This document shows positions 36,457 to 43,897 of a stretch of DNA of 64,000 nucleotides, piece after piece. The first letter of the stretch is position 1, and each line of letters starts with the position of its first letter. Made by a program: the position numbers and the translations under genes. The stretch is from Dehalococcoidia bacterium (GTDB lineage: Bacteria; Chloroflexota; Dehalococcoidia; UBA2979), in assembly GCA_009379925.1 (NCBI GenBank), contig WHSU01000009.1:1-64000 (forward strand). Direction: 5' to 3'. The notes below the pieces were generated by a model. That model was not told the DNA's origin. It did not search any database and saw nothing but the letters and a program-made list of their open reading frames with translations.

Positions 36457-37284
36457 GTGCCGTTCGACCTCGACCGCTACCAGCAGCTACGCACCTCTAC
36501 GCGCGCGGGCGCCGAGGTGCACTACGTGGAGCACACCGGCTCGACGATGGACGACGCGCGGGCGGGCGCCTCGAGCGACGGCGTCGCCTCGTGCGGGCGG
36601 GCGTACGTGGCCGGCGAGCAGTCCGCCGGGCGTGGGCGGCAGGGACGCACCTGGGTCTCGGCGGCCGCGGCGGGCCTCTACGCCACCTACCATCTCTGCC
36701 CGCCGAGCATCGAGCGCGCCCCGCTGCTCTCGATTGCGGGTGCCGTCGCCGCCCTCGAGGCGATCGAGGCGACATCGGGGCTTCGCCTGGAGCTGAAGTG
36801 GCCGAACGACGTGCTGCACGAGGGACGGAAGCTGTGCGGCGTGCTCGCCGAATCGCGCATCGATGGTGGCCGCGTCGACGCGTTCCTCGGCGTCGGCATC
36901 AACCTGCGTTCGCAGCCGGACCTGCCGCCTGAGGTCCACGCGATCGCGACGAGCATCGAGGCGGCCGGAAGTGCCGTGCTCGCACGCGAGGATCTGCTCG
37001 CCGCGCTTTCGACCGCCCTTGAGCCACGCGTGGAGCAGGCCGCCGGTGCATCGGAGATGCTGCTGGCGGACTGGCGCGCGCGACTCGGCACCCTCGGGCG
37101 CCGTGTGGCGCTGGCGACGCCCTCGGGAGCGGTCGATGGGGAAGCGGTGGACATAACGGCGAGCGGCGAACTGGTGTTGCGCCTCGACGACGGCTCTACG
37201 CGGGCGTTTGCGGCGGGTGACGTGACGACGGCCCGGCCTCATGCGGGCGAGGGACCGTCAGAGAGTGCGGGGAATCCCGGTTGA
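36457..37284 (+). CDS. birA: Biotin-[acetyl-CoA carboxylase] ligase
   Basis: 275 residues, GTG start. It has no N-terminal DNA-binding domain, so it is the mono-functional type. Ligase motifs include EHTGSTMDDA, the biotinyl-AMP loop GEQSAGRGRQGRTW, LKWPNDVL and GVGINL, plus the SH3-like C-terminal domain. It activates biotin with ATP and attaches it to the carrier protein encoded at 13513-14025. It stands directly before the his leader, whose -35 box overlaps its stop codon. Confidence 0.92.
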   Translation: MPFDLDRYQQLRTSTRAGAEVHYVEHTGSTMDDARAGASSDGVASCGRAYVAGEQSAGRGRQGRTWVSAAAAGLYATYHLCPPSIERAPLLSIAGAVAALEAIEATSGLRLELKWPNDVLHEGRKLCGVLAESRIDGGRVDAFLGVGINLRSQPDLPPEVHAIATSIEAAGSAVLAREDLLAALSTALEPRVEQAAGASEMLLADWRARLGTLGRRVALATPSGAVDGEAVDITASGELVLRLDDGSTRAFAAGDVTTARPHAGEGPSESAGNPG

Positions 37285-37308
37285 CCGCAGCAGGGCCGCT
37301 GCTACGCT
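37281..37308 (+). promoter_or_regulatory. Promoter of the his operon
   Basis: TTGACC (37281-37286, overlapping the birA stop), a 16-base spacer and TACGCT (37303-37308). Transcription would start about 4 bases before the leader ATG, making the leader peptide nearly leaderless. Confidence 0.55.
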
Positions 37309-37318
37309 CGGAAGCACG

Positions 37319-37420
37319 ATGAGCCAGTGGATCGCACCTCAGTGGACCGCCCACACGCACGCGCATCACGCCCATGTGCATCCGCACATGTCGCCGTCGC
37401 GTGCCCGCTCGTTCCGGTAG
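37319..37420 (+). CDS. hisL: Histidine operon leader peptide
   Basis: A 33-residue ORF, MSQWIAPQWTA followed by HTHAHHAHVHPH and MSPSRARSFR: seven His in twelve residues. It sits between the his promoter and hisZ, followed by a hairpin with a T-rich tail, the classical arrangement for attenuation by ribosome stalling at His codons. When charged tRNA-His is scarce, a ribosome stalled on this run would favour an antiterminator. It is analogous to, but not obviously homologous with, enterobacterial hisL. The call rests on composition and position. Confidence 0.8.
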   Translation: MSQWIAPQWTAHTHAHHAHVHPHMSPSRARSFR

Positions 37421-37445
37421 ACCGCACTCCAGCAACCGCAACGCG

Positions 37446-37484
37446 CGCCGCGACGGCTCGGGCCTCGCGGCGTCCTTGTGTCTG
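37446..37484 (+). terminator. Attenuator hairpin of the his operon
   Basis: CGCCGCGA (37446-37453) pairs with TCGCGGCG (37465-37472), followed by TCCTTGTGTCTG. It lies 26 bases after the leader-peptide stop. Competing pairings with the GC-rich leader, or with the CCGCCGCGATCG segment just downstream, are plausible antiterminator arms. Confidence 0.6.
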
Positions 37485-37550: not shown

Positions 37551-38609
37551 GTGACCACCGGTAGAATGCCCGTCGAGACAGCCGAGAGCGAGGCGGACCC
37601 CGCCTCTACGCCCGAAGGGGATCCGGTGCCGGACAACGGGCTACGTACGAGCGGGATGCGGGACCTGGGCCCCGACGAGATGCGCCGGTTCCGCCGCGTC
37701 GAACGCGCCTTCCTCGAGACTGCCGAGGCGCGGGGCTACCTCGAGGTGCGGACCCCGACGATCGAACCGTTGCATCTCTACACCGCGGCCGGGACCCTCT
37801 CGCCCCAGCTGCTGGACCGCGTGTACTCCTTCCTCGACTGGGACGGCTGGAGCGGGGAGCGCGTGGTGCTGCGTCCCGATGCGACCGTCGCGGTCGCGCG
37901 CTGGCTGACCGAGCACGGGCTGGAGGGGCCACAGCGCCTCGCTTACGTGCAGCCGGTGTACCGCTTCGTGCCCGGGGACGGGGACCGCGAGCAATGGCAG
38001 TGCGGCGTCGAACTCTTCGGCGTCCCGGCGCCCGAGGGCGACTCGGAGCTACTGCTGCTGGCGCGCGACCTGCTCGCCGCGCTCGGCCTCGAAGGGCTGC
38101 GCTGCGAGCTCGCGCACGCCGGGCTTGCCCGGGTGATCTTCGCCGCCGCCGGCCTCGACGCCGTCGAGCAACTGGAAGCGTACGACCGCATGCTCGAGGG
38201 CGACGCGGGCATCGTTGACCGGTTGGTCGAGGCTCGCCCGGAATCAGCCTCTGCGCTCCGGCTGCTCTCGGACGTCGACGGCAACGCCGCCGGCTACCTG
38301 GCGAACCTGCGCGCGGCGCTGTTGCCCGACCTGCCGGCAGCCGAGGCCCCGCTTGCCGACCTGGAGGCTGTCGCACGCACGCTCGATGCCGCAGGGCTGC
38401 CGTACCGCGTGCTCCCGGGGACGGCCCGCAACTTCGAGTACTACAGCGGCGTGACCTTCCGCATGTTCGCCGGCGCCGAGGAGTGCCTGGCGGGCGGCCG
38501 CTACGACGGTCTGACGGAGACGATCGGCGGGACGAGCGCGCCCGCGTCGGGCTTCGGTGCCGACCTGCTCCGACTCGCGCGCCTGGTCCCGGCGGGCGGC
38601 GCCCGATGA
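37551..38609 (+). CDS. hisZ: ATP phosphoribosyltransferase regulatory subunit HisZ
   Basis: 352 residues from GTG 37551 (AAGGGA upstream); ATG 37566 is an alternative. It is a class II HisRS-like core: motif 1 region RRVERAFLETAEARGYLEVR, VLRPDATVAVARWL and YRFVPGDGDREQWQCGVELFG. It lacks the anticodon-binding domain of a true HisRS. HisZ partners the short form of HisG and provides allosteric control of the first step of histidine synthesis. It overlaps hisG by 4 bases (ATGA), so the two are coupled. Confidence 0.9.
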   Translation: MTTGRMPVETAESEADPASTPEGDPVPDNGLRTSGMRDLGPDEMRRFRRVERAFLETAEARGYLEVRTPTIEPLHLYTAAGTLSPQLLDRVYSFLDWDGWSGERVVLRPDATVAVARWLTEHGLEGPQRLAYVQPVYRFVPGDGDREQWQCGVELFGVPAPEGDSELLLLARDLLAALGLEGLRCELAHAGLARVIFAAAGLDAVEQLEAYDRMLEGDAGIVDRLVEARPESASALRLLSDVDGNAAGYLANLRAALLPDLPAAEAPLADLEAVARTLDAAGLPYRVLPGTARNFEYYSGVTFRMFAGAEECLAGGRYDGLTETIGGTSAPASGFGADLLRLARLVPAGGAR

Positions 38610-40015
38610 CCCGCCCGATCCGTGTCGCGCTGCCTCGTGGCGACCTGCGCGAACCGTTGGCCGAGCAGTTGCGCGCCGCCGGCTTCGTCGCCGAGGGCTA
38701 CGGCGAGGGCTCGCGTTCCTACCGCTTCGACGTGGAGGACCGGCCGACCGTGCAGGTCCGCGTCTTCTCGGACGCCGACATCCCGATCCAGGTTGCCCTC
38801 GGGCAGTACGACCTCGGCATCGCGAGCCGCACATGGACCGACGAGTTGCTGGTGCGCTACCGGCACGAGTCCATCGTCCCATTGCGCTCGCTGGACCTAG
38901 GGAGCGAGCGGCTCGTGGTCGCCGGTGCGCCGGGGACGAGCATCGAGCGCCTCGCGGCGGGCGGCGCCGTGCAGGTGTCCACCGAGTACCCGAACCTTGC
39001 GCACCACTACCTGAACCGTCTGCGCGTGCCGGACTACCGCCTCTACGACGTGTGGGCGCAGGCCGAGGCGTGGCCACCGGACGACGCCGAACTCGCCATC
39101 GCCGCCGCCAGTGCCGTCGAGCGCGAAGGCCTCGAGGTGCTCGGAGACGTGCACCGAGGCGGCGTGTGGCTCATCGGCAACCGGGACGCGCTCGCCGAGC
39201 GCGACCTGCGGGAAGCGCTGGAGCCGCTGCTGATGCTGCCCAGGGGTGACGGCGAATCCGGGCTCGTCGTGCCGCCGGCCATTGGGGGCCTCCGACGGGC
39301 GCCCTCGCGCGCTACGTCGGAGCGCGAGTGCTTCCGCATCGCCGTGCCGGACGGGCACGCGCAGCGGCACACGGTCGCCGCGCTGGCGTCCGCCGGCATC
39401 GCCTTCGACGGCTACGAGGAGGGACGCACGATGCGGCGGCCGCTCTCCGACCTCGATGGCGTCGAGGTGAAGGTGATGCGGCCGCAGGACATGCCCCGTG
39501 CGGTCGCGCTCGGCCGCTTCGACCTGGCGGTCACCGGGCGGGACTGGCTGGAGGTACACCGGACGGCCTTTCCGGCTGCGCCGGTCGTCGAGCTGTGCGA
39601 CCTCGCGCGCTCGAAGTACCGGCTCGGCGCCGTCGTGTCGGAGGACCTGCCGGTCGAGAGCATCCGGGAGGCGGTCGCGTACTGGCGCCGGGACGACCCA
39701 TCGCGGCCCATCCGGCTGGCCTCCGAGTACGCGTCGCTGGCGGACGATTACGCACGCGGGCGGCACCTGGGGCGCTACCGCGTGATCCCGATTTCTGGGG
39801 CTTCCGAGGGCTTCGTCCCCGAGGACGCCGAGATCCTGATCGAAGGGGCGGAGACCGGTACGACGCTTCGGGCCAACAGACTGCGTATGATTGATGTGAT
39901 CATGGAGTCCACGAACTGCGCGATTGGCGCCGCGGAGCGCCCCGTGGGGCGACGAGGCGAGTTGCGCGACGAGTTCGTGGAGCGGCTCCGCGCTGCCGCC
40001 CTGGCGGCGGGGTAG
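38606..40015 (+). CDS. hisG: Tandem-duplicated ATP phosphoribosyltransferase (HisG-HisG fusion)
   Basis: 469 residues, about twice the ~210 of HisG-short. Residues 1-~212 form one HisG unit (VALPRGDL at 7-14, DIPIQVALGQYDLGIASR at 58-75, STEYPNLAHHYL at 125-136). Residues ~242-469 form a second (FRIAVPDG, DMPRAVALGRFDLAVTGRDW at 295-314, ASEYASLADDYA). The PRPP-loop motif ETGTTLRAN is present only in the second unit (416-424); the first has AIAAASAVE there. HisG joins ATP and PRPP to make phosphoribosyl-ATP. The halves are diverged, implying one long-established fusion with divided roles. Confidence 0.85.
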   Translation: MTRPIRVALPRGDLREPLAEQLRAAGFVAEGYGEGSRSYRFDVEDRPTVQVRVFSDADIPIQVALGQYDLGIASRTWTDELLVRYRHESIVPLRSLDLGSERLVVAGAPGTSIERLAAGGAVQVSTEYPNLAHHYLNRLRVPDYRLYDVWAQAEAWPPDDAELAIAAASAVEREGLEVLGDVHRGGVWLIGNRDALAERDLREALEPLLMLPRGDGESGLVVPPAIGGLRRAPSRATSERECFRIAVPDGHAQRHTVAALASAGIAFDGYEEGRTMRRPLSDLDGVEVKVMRPQDMPRAVALGRFDLAVTGRDWLEVHRTAFPAAPVVELCDLARSKYRLGAVVSEDLPVESIREAVAYWRRDDPSRPIRLASEYASLADDYARGRHLGRYRVIPISGASEGFVPEDAEILIEGAETGTTLRANRLRMIDVIMESTNCAIGAAERPVGRRGELRDEFVERLRAAALAAG

Positions 40016-40036: not shown

Positions 40037-40786
40037 ATGCCGTCGCTGGGCTCGCATATGACGAGGGCGCGGCTGATAGCCGAGCGCCTGCGTCTGCCCG
40101 AAATCGACGCCGACCGTGGGTCGTTCTACTTCGGTGCGTCCGCACCCGACGTGCGCGTCATCACCCGGTTGGACCGGCGGGTGACGCACTTCTACGAGCT
40201 TGACGAGTACGAGCGTCAGGACTCGGTGGAGCGCATGTTCCGGGAGAACCCGGCGCTGGCCCTTCCCGCCGGGCTGGACACCGCGGCCGCGGCGTTCATG
40301 GCCGGCTACCTGACCCACCTCGTCCTCGACGAGGCCTACATCGAGGAGATATACCGGCCGCGTTTCGGCGTGCACTCGGACATCGCCGAGGAGCCGCGCC
40401 GCAACGTGCTCGACCGCGCGCTTCAGTACGAGATCGACCTGCGTGACCGGGAGGACCGCGAGGCGATGGCGGACATTGGGCGCTCGCTGGCGGCGTGCTC
40501 ACCGGTGGCGGGCATCCCGTTCATCCAGGACGAGCATCTCCAGGAGTGGAGCGCCGTGGTCCTCGATGTGGCTTCGCACGCACCCGACTACGCGCGCTTC
40601 AAGCGCATGATGTCGCGCCACCTCGCTGCCGCCGGCCTGAGCGGCGACGAAATCGACCGGTCCTGCGAGGACCCTGAGGCGCTCGTGCGCGAGGCGTTCG
40701 AGCGCGTCACGCCCGAGCGCATCGAGGAGTTCTGGGAGGACTCGGCACAACGCATGTACGACCGTGTCTGGAGGTACTTGAGGTGA
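40037..40786 (+). CDS. Zinc-dependent phospholipase C-like protein in the his operon
   Basis: 249 residues from ATG 40037. MPSLGSHMTRARLIAE, FYFGASAPDVRVIT, THFYELDEYE and AGYLTHLVLDEAYIEEI resemble the bacterial Zn_dep_PLPC (phospholipase C/S1-P1 nuclease-like) family, with His and Asp residues placed as metal ligands. There is no signal peptide, so it is probably cytosolic. It lies 21 bases after hisG, and hisD overlaps its end (GTGA), so it is translated within the operon. No histidine-pathway step is known for this family; the reaction is unknown. Confidence 0.7.
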   Translation: MPSLGSHMTRARLIAERLRLPEIDADRGSFYFGASAPDVRVITRLDRRVTHFYELDEYERQDSVERMFRENPALALPAGLDTAAAAFMAGYLTHLVLDEAYIEEIYRPRFGVHSDIAEEPRRNVLDRALQYEIDLRDREDREAMADIGRSLAACSPVAGIPFIQDEHLQEWSAVVLDVASHAPDYARFKRMMSRHLAAAGLSGDEIDRSCEDPEALVREAFERVTPERIEEFWEDSAQRMYDRVWRYLR

Positions 40787-42141
40787 CCCCGCCGACATCC
40801 ACCGACGCTGCGCTCGCGCTTCGGATCGTGGAGGGCGCGGACGAGGCTCGCCGCACCATCCTCCTGCGCAGGCCGTTTACGGAGCCGGAGTTGCCGGCCG
40901 CGCTTCAGACGAGCATCGAGGAGCTGTGGGGCGAGCCGGTCACGGCCGCCGAGCACGTCAGGCACATCGTTGCGGATGTGGCGGACGAGGGTGACGCGGC
41001 GCTCGCACGCTATACGCAGCGCTTCGACGGCTCGCAGTACGAGACCGTGGAGGTCACGCCGGAGGAGACCCAGGCAGCGTTCGACCAGGTGCCATACGCC
41101 CAGGTCGATGCGATCGAGTTCGCCGTGCAGCGCGTCCGGCACTACCACAAGCTGCAGTTGGAGCACGGGCCGCAGTCCTTCCACGCGCGAGGCACCGGCA
41201 TGACCGTGCGCCCGATCCAGCGCGCCGGCATCTACATGACGGGCAACGAGGCGCCGCTGCCTTCCTCGATCGTGCACACTGCCGTCCCCGCCGTGGTCGC
41301 CGGCGTCGAGGAGGTGATCGGGGTGACCGCGGCCCGCGCCGACGGCACCGTGCATCCGCTCAAACTGGTGGCGGCACGTCTCTCCGGCGTGCAGCGGGTG
41401 TTCCGAGGCTCCGGCGCTGCCGCCATCGCGGCGCTTGCCTTCGGTACGGACACCGTCCCGCGCGTCGACAAGATCTTCGGGCCGGGCGGCATCTTCGTGA
41501 CGCTGGCGAAGCAGCAGCTCTTCGGTCGCGTCGGCATCGACGCGATCTACGGCCCGACGGAAACCCTGGTGCTGGCGGACGACTCGGCGGCGGCCGACCT
41601 GTGCGCGGCCGACCTGCTCGCGCAGGCGGAGCACGATGTGCTGGCGACGCCGGTGCTGATCACGACCAGCCGCGGGCACGCCGAAGCCGTGGCCGCGGAG
41701 GTGGAGAGGCAGCTCGAAGACCTCGAGCGCCGCGACATCGCGCGGGCCGCCATCGAGCGGGGTGGGGCGGTCGTGGCAGCCGACCTCGATAAGGCGGTCG
41801 CGCTGGCGAACGAGTTCGCGCCCGAGCACCTCTGCCTCCTCACGCGGGACCCGGAGGCGCTCGTGCCAAAGATACGGAACGCCGGGGGCATCTTCATCGG
41901 CGAGTCGTCGCCCGAAGTGCTGGGCGACTACACCGCCGGTCCCAGCCACGTCATGCCCACGGGTGGGTCGGCGCGCTTCGCGTCCCCGCTCTCCGTGCTC
42001 GACTTCCTCAAGGTCTCCTCGGTAGTCTCCTTCTCGGACGAAGATCTGCGCCGGCTGGGACCGTTCGCGGCCGAGCTGGCACGCGCCGAGGGCCTGACGG
42101 GCCACGCGAGGAGCATCGAGCGCCGGCTGGAGGGCCGCTGA
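40783..42141 (+). CDS. hisD: Histidinol dehydrogenase
   Basis: 452 residues, GTG start overlapping the previous stop. It oxidises histidinol to histidine in two NAD steps with zinc. Motifs: GPGGIFVTLAKQQLFGRVGI, DLLAQAEHDVLATPVLIT with the catalytic His region, and DYTAGPSHVMPTGGSARF. Length fits the family. It overlaps hisC by one base (TGATG). Confidence 0.95.
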   Translation: MTPPTSTDAALALRIVEGADEARRTILLRRPFTEPELPAALQTSIEELWGEPVTAAEHVRHIVADVADEGDAALARYTQRFDGSQYETVEVTPEETQAAFDQVPYAQVDAIEFAVQRVRHYHKLQLEHGPQSFHARGTGMTVRPIQRAGIYMTGNEAPLPSSIVHTAVPAVVAGVEEVIGVTAARADGTVHPLKLVAARLSGVQRVFRGSGAAAIAALAFGTDTVPRVDKIFGPGGIFVTLAKQQLFGRVGIDAIYGPTETLVLADDSAAADLCAADLLAQAEHDVLATPVLITTSRGHAEAVAAEVERQLEDLERRDIARAAIERGGAVVAADLDKAVALANEFAPEHLCLLTRDPEALVPKIRNAGGIFIGESSPEVLGDYTAGPSHVMPTGGSARFASPLSVLDFLKVSSVVSFSDEDLRRLGPFAAELARAEGLTGHARSIERRLEGR

Positions 42142-43292
42142 TGCCTCGTTTCGACGCGCGTGAGGCGTTGCGTCTCTCGATGCGCGAGTTGCCAGTCTAT
42201 GAGGCGCTGGAAGACCCGGTCGCGATCGCCGCCCAGTACGGCGTGCCCGCCGAGCGCGTCGTGAAGCTCGACGGCAACGAGAACCCGTACGGTCCATCCC
42301 CGAGGGCCATCGAGGCCCTGCGCGGCGACTACGCCCCCCACCGCTACGTCGACCCGACGCAGGCGCGTCTCCGCGAGGCGATCGCGGGACGTCTCGGCGT
42401 GGGGGCGGAGAGCGTGGTGGCCGGGGCGGGGTCGGACGAGATCATCGACCTGCTCTCTCGTCTCTTTGTCAGCGAGGGCGACCGCGTGGTGGTGGCGACG
42501 CCGACGTTCGGCATGTACGCCTTCGACGCGAGCCTGAGCGGCGCGGACCTCGTCGACGTGCCGCGCGCCGCCGACTGGAGCCTCGACGCCGAGTCGCTCA
42601 TCGAGGCGGCCCATGGCGCGAAGGCGGTGTTCCTCCCCTCGCCTAATAACCCGACGGGCAACGCCGTCCCCGCTGGCCTCGTGGACCGTCTGCTCGCCTC
42701 CGGCGCCCTCGTCGTCATCGACGAGGCGTACATCGAGTTTTCGCACGCTGAGTCGCTGGCCGGCCGGGCCGCTTCGGATGCCTCGCTCGTTGTGTTGCGG
42801 ACGTTCAGCAAGTGGGGCGGGCTGGCCGGATTGCGGCTCGGGTACGGCGTGATGGCGCCGGGCACCGCCGACCTCCTGTTGCGCGCCAAGCAGCCCTACA
42901 ACGTGAGCGCTGCAGCAGAGGCAGCCGCCCTCGCGACGCTCCAGGACACCGAGGCGCTCGACGAGCGCGCGTGCCGCATCGCCGGCGACCGTGACCGGCT
43001 GGCGGAGCGGCTCGAGGCCCTCGGCTGGGTCTACCCGTGGCCCTCGGAGGCGAACTTCCTGCTCTGCGGGCTCGCGCTCGGGACCGGCCTCGAGGTGCGG
43101 GACGAACTCCGGCGGCGCGGCATCTTCGTGCGCTACTTCACGGCGCCAAGGCTGGCGGACCACGTCCGCATCTCCATCGGTACTCCGGAGCAGAACGACC
43201 GCGTGGTCGAGGCGATGCGTGGGATCGGCGAGGCGCTGGCTTCGGCCGTCGCGGGCTCGGGTAGTGGTTCAGGGAAAGAGGCCGCGAAGTGA
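42141..43292 (+). CDS. hisC: Histidinol-phosphate aminotransferase
   Basis: 383 residues. It is a class I/II PLP aminotransferase converting imidazole-acetol phosphate to histidinol phosphate with glutamate. KLDGNENPYGPSP near the N-terminus, LPSPNNPTGN and the PLP lysine in TFSKWGGLAGLRLGYG are diagnostic. The C-terminus extends through a Gly/Ser-rich tail. It overlaps hisB by 4 bases (GTGA). Confidence 0.93.
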   Translation: MPRFDAREALRLSMRELPVYEALEDPVAIAAQYGVPAERVVKLDGNENPYGPSPRAIEALRGDYAPHRYVDPTQARLREAIAGRLGVGAESVVAGAGSDEIIDLLSRLFVSEGDRVVVATPTFGMYAFDASLSGADLVDVPRAADWSLDAESLIEAAHGAKAVFLPSPNNPTGNAVPAGLVDRLLASGALVVIDEAYIEFSHAESLAGRAASDASLVVLRTFSKWGGLAGLRLGYGVMAPGTADLLLRAKQPYNVSAAAEAAALATLQDTEALDERACRIAGDRDRLAERLEALGWVYPWPSEANFLLCGLALGTGLEVRDELRRRGIFVRYFTAPRLADHVRISIGTPEQNDRVVEAMRGIGEALASAVAGSGSGSGKEAAK

Positions 43293-43897
43293 GGATGCCG
43301 AACGAGCGCCGGGCGACCGTTGAGCGCGACACCGCCGAGACGCGCGTCCACGTCGACCTGAACGTGGACGGCACCGGGCGCGCCGAGGTGGCCACGGGCA
43401 TCGGCTTCTACGACCACATGCTGACCGCCTTCGCCCGCCACGGCCGCTTCGACCTGACCGTCCGCGCCTCTGGCGACCTGGAGATCGACGCCCACCACAC
43501 GATGGAGGACATCGCGCTGGTCCTTGGCCAGGCGTTCGACGAGGCTCTCGGCGACCGGGCCGGCATCGTGCGGATGGGGGACGCGCTGGTGCCGCTCGAC
43601 GAGGCGCTGGTGCAGGTCGCCATCGATATCTCGGGCCGCCCATACGCCGCGACCAACCTCCAGTTCACCGGCGACCGCATCGGTGAGGCGCCGGCGGAGA
43701 TGGTGTCGCACGTCCTGCGCTCGTTCGCCTCGACAGCGAAGGTGGCTCTGCACGCCCGCCAGCTCGCCGGCGCCAACGACCACCACATCGCCGAAGCGAC
43801 GATGAAGGCGCTTGGCCGCGCCCTCGACGCCGCCAGCACCTACGACTCCCGAATCGCCGGCGAGGTCCCGTCGACGAAGGAGACACTGACGGCGTAG
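43289..43897 (+). CDS. hisB: Imidazoleglycerol-phosphate dehydratase
   Basis: 202 residues, GTG start. It dehydrates imidazoleglycerol phosphate using two Mn ions. The two metal motifs are intact: DAHHTMEDIALVLG and NDHHIAEATMKALG, as is GIGFYDHMLTAFARHG. It is the single-domain type, without the N-terminal phosphatase of enterobacterial HisB, so histidinol phosphatase must come from elsewhere, probably the HisN-like gene at 45660. Last gene of the his operon. Confidence 0.95.
   Translation: MRMPNERRATVERDTAETRVHVDLNVDGTGRAEVATGIGFYDHMLTAFARHGRFDLTVRASGDLEIDAHHTMEDIALVLGQAFDEALGDRAGIVRMGDALVPLDEALVQVAIDISGRPYAATNLQFTGDRIGEAPAEMVSHVLRSFASTAKVALHARQLAGANDHHIAEATMKALGRALDAASTYDSRIAGEVPSTKETLTA

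Follow-up and report, generated by a model that had tools for sequence, protein, structure and literature searches.

A predicted ribosome-mediated histidine attenuator with a leaderless leader peptide upstream of hisZ in the Dehalococcoidia

Introduction

Among the closest described counterparts of the locus considered here is the enterobacterial hisL leader (RF00514, His_leader), in which a leader peptide containing a run of seven His residues is combined with mutually exclusive antiterminator and terminator helices ahead of the histidine biosynthesis genes. Among Firmicutes, His leader peptides have been predicted in the B. cereus group, the Peptostreptococcaceae and the Erysipelotrichales (PMC9413887, PMC2965389). 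These are described with 3-5 consecutive His codons together with a terminator and an antiterminator, and some of them lie ahead of hisZ. In both Firmicutes and Actinobacteria, his genes can also be preceded by T-boxes, which likewise sense tRNA charging. For Actinobacteria, a survey of 2005 described leader peptides for trp, ilvB and leuS; it reported no conserved terminator at the mycobacterial cysteine leaders, and histidine operons showed no conserved upstream RNA structure (PMC1262725). His-containing leader peptides of this phylum are the subject of a later conference paper, known to us through its citation in PMC4833913. The cysteine leaders of mycobacteria are of particular relevance, being leaderless polycysteine sORF attenuators (Canestrari et al. 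2020, as cited in PMC9031893). Among open-access PMC papers, we found no earlier report of leader-peptide attenuation in Chloroflexi.

Here we describe a short His-rich open reading frame (ORF) upstream of a hisZ-hisG-hisD-hisC-hisB cluster of the Chloroflexota, which we consider very probably to be the leader of a ribosome-mediated transcription attenuator whose peptide is translated from a leaderless transcript. With hisL it shares the His-codon leader peptide, the predicted exclusion between antiterminator and terminator, and the biosynthetic genes downstream. It differs in being apparently leaderless, in carrying the antiterminator strand (arm 2) within the ORF, in preceding an operon that begins with hisZ and in having His codons that alternate with other residues. 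The RF00514 covariance model gave no match at the window leader even at E<=10, and we therefore do not assign the leader to that family; nor does any other Rfam family explain the region. The Firmicutes attenuators, compared without regard to initiation sites, offer a similar architecture in a different phylum, and the Actinobacterial trp, ilvB and leuS leaders are a further instance of leader-peptide attenuation outside the Proteobacteria. The mycobacterial system also employs a leaderless short ORF with regulatory codons that sense one amino acid, but there the amino acid is cysteine and the phylum Actinobacteria, whereas the leader described here would sense histidine and has a predicted terminator and antiterminator.

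If correct, this reading adds Chloroflexota to the phyla with predicted His leader-peptide attenuation (Proteobacteria and Firmicutes, with Actinobacteria by citation), and combines His attenuation with leaderless translation, a link that we otherwise found only for the mycobacterial cysteine genes.

The his gene cluster

The window, by which we mean the whole 64 kb stretch of DNA analysed, belongs to contig C39 of a 3.5 Mb metagenome-assembled genome whose HisZ relatives are Chloroflexota of the class Dehalococcoidia, so that the first-pass annotation was right to regard the his operon as non-proteobacterial. An actinobacterial origin, which GC content and promoter spacing might suggest, is rejected on the evidence of these relatives. 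The genes surrounding the leader are as follows.

36457..37284, + strand: birA (biotin--protein ligase), the upstream neighbour (TIGR00121, above cut-off)
37566..38609, + strand: hisZ, first gene of the putatively regulated cluster, start uncertain (PF13393, above cut-off)
38600..40015, + strand: hisG, double length, 471 aa (TIGR00070, above cut-off, in two stretches; PF01634, in two stretches)
40037..40786, + strand: protein with weak similarity to zinc-dependent phospholipase C (PF00882, hit below cut-off)
40783..42141, + strand: hisD (TIGR00069, above cut-off)
42141..43292, + strand: hisC (TIGR01141, above cut-off)
43289..43897, + strand: hisB (NF002116, above cut-off)

The genes that the candidate attenuator would control, namely hisZ, hisG, hisD, hisC and hisB, are thus those of histidine synthesis. 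TIGR00443 is the best match of the hisZ product, yet it falls below the cut-off of that model, and the candidate starts of the gene are GTG at 37551, ATG at 37566 and GTG at 37627. The presence of two HisG-model stretches in the 471-residue HisG suggests an internal duplication or fusion. The PF00882-like protein sits inside the cluster, between hisG and hisD.

The first-pass annotation had supposed that his operons of this lineage are more often thought to be T-box controlled or unregulated. The searches gave no support for T-box control: no T-box (RF00230) reached the Rfam gathering score at hisZ, either in the window or at 36 other loci of the class. Control of hisZ by a T-box or by RF00514 is rejected on the covariance-model searches.

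The leader peptide and its conservation

Within the gap between birA and hisZ lies an ORF that runs from an ATG at 37319 to a stop at 37418-37420.

37319..37420, + strand: leader peptide ORF (hisL-like), 33 codons, MSQWIAPQWTAHTHAHHAHVHPHMSPSRARSFR followed by the stop (translation, conservation)
37352..37387, + strand: regulatory codons, 7 His in 12 (codons 12-23) (translation, His-density count)

The seven His codons in twelve positions, like the 33-codon ORF itself, can be read directly from the DNA, as had been noted previously. This is the sole stretch with 7 His per 12 codons in the six frames of the 64 kb window; stretches with 6 His occur only where they overlap it, and the maximum in 40 dinucleotide shuffles of the window was 4-6. 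The His run is not due to chance.

The GTDB family to which the genome belongs comprises 44 genomes in 17 genera, 38 of which encode HisZ at E<=1e-35. Two of these were left out because the contig ends before the gap, leaving 36 genomes readable upstream of hisZ. A short ORF is present at the equivalent site in 28 of the 36, representing 14 of the 17 genera, and encodes peptides such as MNRDAITSIRSAHAHHGAHGHAHVHAMPSRARLSR, MRQTHFVHAHAGHAHSAHAAHAHGTPSCARLHR and MNWSVIHATHAHAHAHLYDLPSRARTSR. The number of His codons ranges from 2 to 9, with 3-9 in 25 of the 28 ORFs and only 2 in the remaining three (L008, L042 and L050). The eight genomes that lack the ORF all belong to three small-genome genera (g5, g8 and g10). 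The gene upstream is usually, yet not always, birA, from which it follows that the leader travels with hisZ.

The pattern of substitution between close relatives indicates that histidine itself is retained: His codons exhibited 15 synonymous and 8 nonsynonymous changes, as against 25 synonymous and 70 nonsynonymous changes at the other codons before arm 2 in the same comparisons. Conservation of the His codons in relatives with the same gap had been set beforehand as a refutation test of the attenuator reading, and they are kept, with mainly synonymous change. A uniform count across the family also found ORFs much denser in His upstream of hisZ than upstream of trpE or ilvB (Mann-Whitney p=7e-11), a value that is only indicative because the loci are related.

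In one relative (L052, G034:C23), a TGA ends the leader ORF directly after the third His codon, and the frame beyond it resembles the arm 2 codons of the relatives; this TGA may be a real early stop, a site of read-through or an assembly error.

A covariance-model search of 294 genomes of the class detected the family-type attenuator only within the family, with a sensitivity that is limited because some known members were missed. A candidate second attenuator in the window genome (G000:C39:88767-88870, E=1.7e-5) was rejected, being an ordinary GC hairpin at a gene end that lacks a His ORF.

Promoter and leaderless start

A promoter-like pair of hexamers precedes the leader, with a spacer of 16 nt (TTGACC-16-TACGCT).

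37281..37286, + strand: -35 hexamer TTGACC (sequence; TTGAYC/TTGCC at the equivalent site in relatives)
37303..37308, + strand: -10 hexamer TACGCT, with the leader ATG 10 nt downstream (sequence; relatives)

A comparable pair, TTGACG-17-TACGCT, precedes a tRNA-Val gene in the same window. A strict scan based on E. coli sigma-70 and terminator consensus sequences reported neither a promoter nor a terminator at the leader locus, because the -10 hexamer and the T tail match the E. coli consensus weakly. The argument that both elements are real in the window copy is therefore one of conservation, the evidence from that single copy being weak.

Conservation of the promoter-like pair is extensive. 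TTGAYC/TTGCC together with a TAnnnT-like hexamer is found ahead of the leader in 27 of the 28 family loci, also where birA is not upstream, and in these 27 the -10 hexamer lies 6-10 nt before the start codon. Bacterial transcripts usually start ~6-8 nt past the -10 hexamer; the 5' untranslated region would then measure 0 to ~4 nt, into which a ribosome site cannot fit. The exception is L008, in which the leader starts 18 nt past the -10 hexamer and is accompanied by GAGGAG; no Shine-Dalgarno site was seen before the leader ORF at any other of the 28 loci. This spacing suggests that the leader transcript is leaderless, with its first base at the AUG or only a few bases away, and lends weight to the earlier suggestion that the peptide may be translated without a ribosome site.

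An alternative is that the short ORF is translated by ordinary initiation from a longer transcript, arising by read-through of birA or at a more distant upstream promoter, in which case the leaderless start would be illusory while the attenuator would stand. Read-through is made possible by the position of the birA end, at 37284, and the negative outcome of the strict scan would fit such a transcript. We nevertheless judge it rather unlikely, since the promoter-like pair and its spacing recur at loci that have no birA upstream and a Shine-Dalgarno site is confined to L008.

Mutually exclusive helices

The region downstream of the His run contains three strands with the potential to form two helices.

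37393..37401, + strand: arm 2, antiterminator 5' strand GCCGUCGCG, PSR codons inside the ORF past the His run (pairing, covariation)
37449..37457, + strand: arm 3 as it would pair in the antiterminator, CGCGACGGC (pairing, covariation)
37445..37453, + strand: arm 3 as it would pair in the terminator, GCGCCGCGA (pairing, covariation)
37465..37473, + strand: arm 4, terminator 3' strand UCGCGGCGU (pairing, covariation)
37474..37483, + strand: weak T tail CCTTGTGTCT (sequence; more T in most relatives)

Arm 2, the codons of which usually read Pro-Ser-Arg-Ala in the family, is complementary to arm 3, the 5' part of which also pairs with arm 4. Helices 2:3 and 3:4 thus have arm 3 in common and are mutually exclusive. 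The first-pass annotation had recognized the switch, which our analysis supports, without describing one of its parts: arm 2, which lies within the ORF and would supply the antiterminator strand. It had also described a GC stem with a T-containing tail. The hairpin is present, as GCGCCGCGA[11 nt]UCGCGGCGU at 37445-37473, with 9 bp including one terminal G-U, even if the strict scan gives it no score.

Base pairs were counted in two alignments, one of the arms of 19 sequences, built by hand (A1), and one of the region as a whole, made with MAFFT (A2). In helix 2:3, 96-97.5% of cells are paired and three of the nine pairs show two-sided changes, figures to be read in the knowledge that the sequences were chosen around the arms. 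The changes include those from U-A to C-G at the fifth pair (L049, L050 and L008), from C-G to U-A at the eighth (L036) and from G-C to C-G at the first (L048). Depending on the measure, the score of this helix was equalled in 0-8 of 500 shuffles (0-2 of 500 in one count). Helix 3:4 exhibits compensatory changes from A-U to G-C at its inner end (L040, L046, L008 and L050), and two of its five measures do not exceed the shuffles. The pairing of arm 2 with the arm 3 of its own species is better on average than that between species, with only 2 of 20000 permutations as good. Both helices therefore covary across relatives, as the check proposed in the first-pass annotation had asked, and this, together with conservation of the His codons, supports its proposal of control by hisL-like ribosome stalling.

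A peptide that senses histidine might also act through an output other than intrinsic termination, and this deserves consideration; Rho could terminate transcription in the untranslated stretch, or translation of hisZ could be the step controlled. The T tail of the window copy is poor (4 T in 8, compared with 4-7 in most relatives), and in genus g9 arm 4 is degenerate, no T run lies behind it and there is no recognizable U-rich terminator. Furthermore, the mycobacterial leaderless cysteine attenuators are described as acting on downstream translation (PMC9031893). Most relatives, however, have a hairpin of 9-13 bp with a T-rich tail directly after it, and the mutual exclusion of 2:3 and 3:4 is of the kind associated with intrinsic terminators. 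In the window, ~80-150 nt also separate the end of the hairpin from the candidate starts of hisZ, a distance too great for direct occlusion of the ribosome site. We regard such an alternative output as unlikely.

Proposed mechanism and ribosome-masked folding

The reading that we favor, attenuation by intrinsic termination, would operate as follows. Transcription would begin at or near the leader AUG, and a ribosome would load on the 5' end of the transcript with no need of a Shine-Dalgarno site. Under a shortage of His-tRNA, the ribosome would stall on the His run and leave arm 2 free to pair with arm 3, so blocking the 3:4 terminator and allowing RNA polymerase to proceed into hisZ. With His-tRNA in ample supply, the ribosome would reach the stop codon, where it would sit over arm 2 or have just unwound it; arm 3 would then pair with arm 4 and transcription would end before hisZ. 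Arm 2 begins 16-37 nt before the leader stop, and a terminating ribosome would consequently cover only the distal part of arm 2 in some species.

This switch was modeled by equilibrium folding with a 33-nt ribosome mask. For the window copy, a ribosome placed at any one of His codons 1 to 5 gives the terminator helix a probability of 0.00-0.02; at the sixth and seventh the value rises to 0.48 and 0.96, and at the stop it is 0.97. The switch amounts to 0.95 for the window copy and to a mean of 0.55 over 21 sequences, compared with 0.006 for leaders shuffled before a fixed terminator; the highest of 60 shuffled family means was 0.16. The switch is weak or absent in seven of the 21 sequences (L040, L043, L047, L049, L050, L042 and L090). 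In silico, at least, the outcome depends on the position of the ribosome at the His codons. What the sequences show is the conserved His ORF with its coding signal, the covarying helices that compete for arm 3 and, in the model, this position-dependent folding; the transcript start, the ribosome stalling and the termination in vivo are inferred.

GC-rich sequence folds strongly regardless of function, and the whole leader is no more stable than its shuffles (z = -0.22); its overall stability is uninformative, and could be taken to favor a chance GC-rich repeat (CAC GCG CAY ...) devoid of function. This notion is scarcely credible, being contradicted by the occurrence of the leader in 14 genera, the synonymous bias of its His codons, the covariation, the species-specific matching of arms and the dependence of folding on ribosome position.

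A second, Shine-Dalgarno-led type

A predicted His attenuator led by a Shine-Dalgarno (SD) site precedes hisZ in 4 of 14 genomes of a Dehalococcoidales-type family (L090/L162, L170, L171 and L173). It comprises a TTGACA promoter, an SD-led His ORF (e.g. MFNQAIIHHHAHHTLTNHRAWSLCR) and a hairpin, AAGCCCGAG..CGGGCTT, with T after it; the CGGGCTTGG codons past the His run show complementarity to the 5' arm of this hairpin. The same scan found no comparable leader upstream of hisZ at roughly 50 other loci of the class. The L173 leader lies downstream of the end of a BirA-like frame.

The two types have the same anatomy and differ in sequence and in initiation, and the SD-led one (L090, L170, L171 and L173) looks closer to the His attenuators of Firmicutes. 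They may be related by common descent or may have arisen by convergence. A broader and more tentative idea, to which we give somewhat less than even weight, is that the amino-acid attenuators of the family are generally leaderless, a 70S ribosome engaging the emerging 5' AUG directly so that sensing begins at the first codon of each transcript, and that the His attenuator of hisZ is ancient in the class, having been remodeled between the leaderless form of this family and the SD-led form of Dehalococcoidales-type genomes. Leaderless, SD-led and, in small genomes, lost, these leaders constitute a natural series for testing how the first ribosome is coupled to RNA polymerase.

Neighboring signals

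A conserved TAGAAT/TACAAT motif occurs between the attenuator and hisZ (37562-37567 in the window) at 16 of the 28 family loci, compared with ~0.7 expected, or at 17 of 29 with L090 included. In nearly all cases it overlaps an ATG in the hisZ frame, often after a purine-rich stretch resembling a ribosome site, and TAGAAT precedes hisZ also in members of the class that have no leader. The motif may simply belong to the hisZ start; alternatively, it may be a second promoter, transcription from which would bypass the attenuator.

Upstream of ilvB in the window genome (L148, G000:C53, ilvB at 97132) is a short ORF that ends in a Leu/Val run, MHGATTSAAAPLPSATLGGLVLVLVLT and then the stop. TTGACG and a -10-like GATACT lie shortly before its ATG, so that it appears to be leaderless, and GC hairpins come next. 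Most of the ilvB loci L142-L161 have an upstream short ORF with a terminal Leu/Val run, such as RLLVLLLVLR or GLLVLVLT directly before the stop, and the ilvB leader is likely to be a branched-chain amino-acid attenuator.

At trpE loci of the family (L139, L137, L124, L127 and others), a T-box and a terminator are followed by a second element, a short ORF with Trp-Trp-Trp; the T-box (RF00230) of L139 scores 51 bits, under the gathering score of 93. These loci would appear to carry two Trp sensors in series, an arrangement reminiscent of the B. subtilis at operon.
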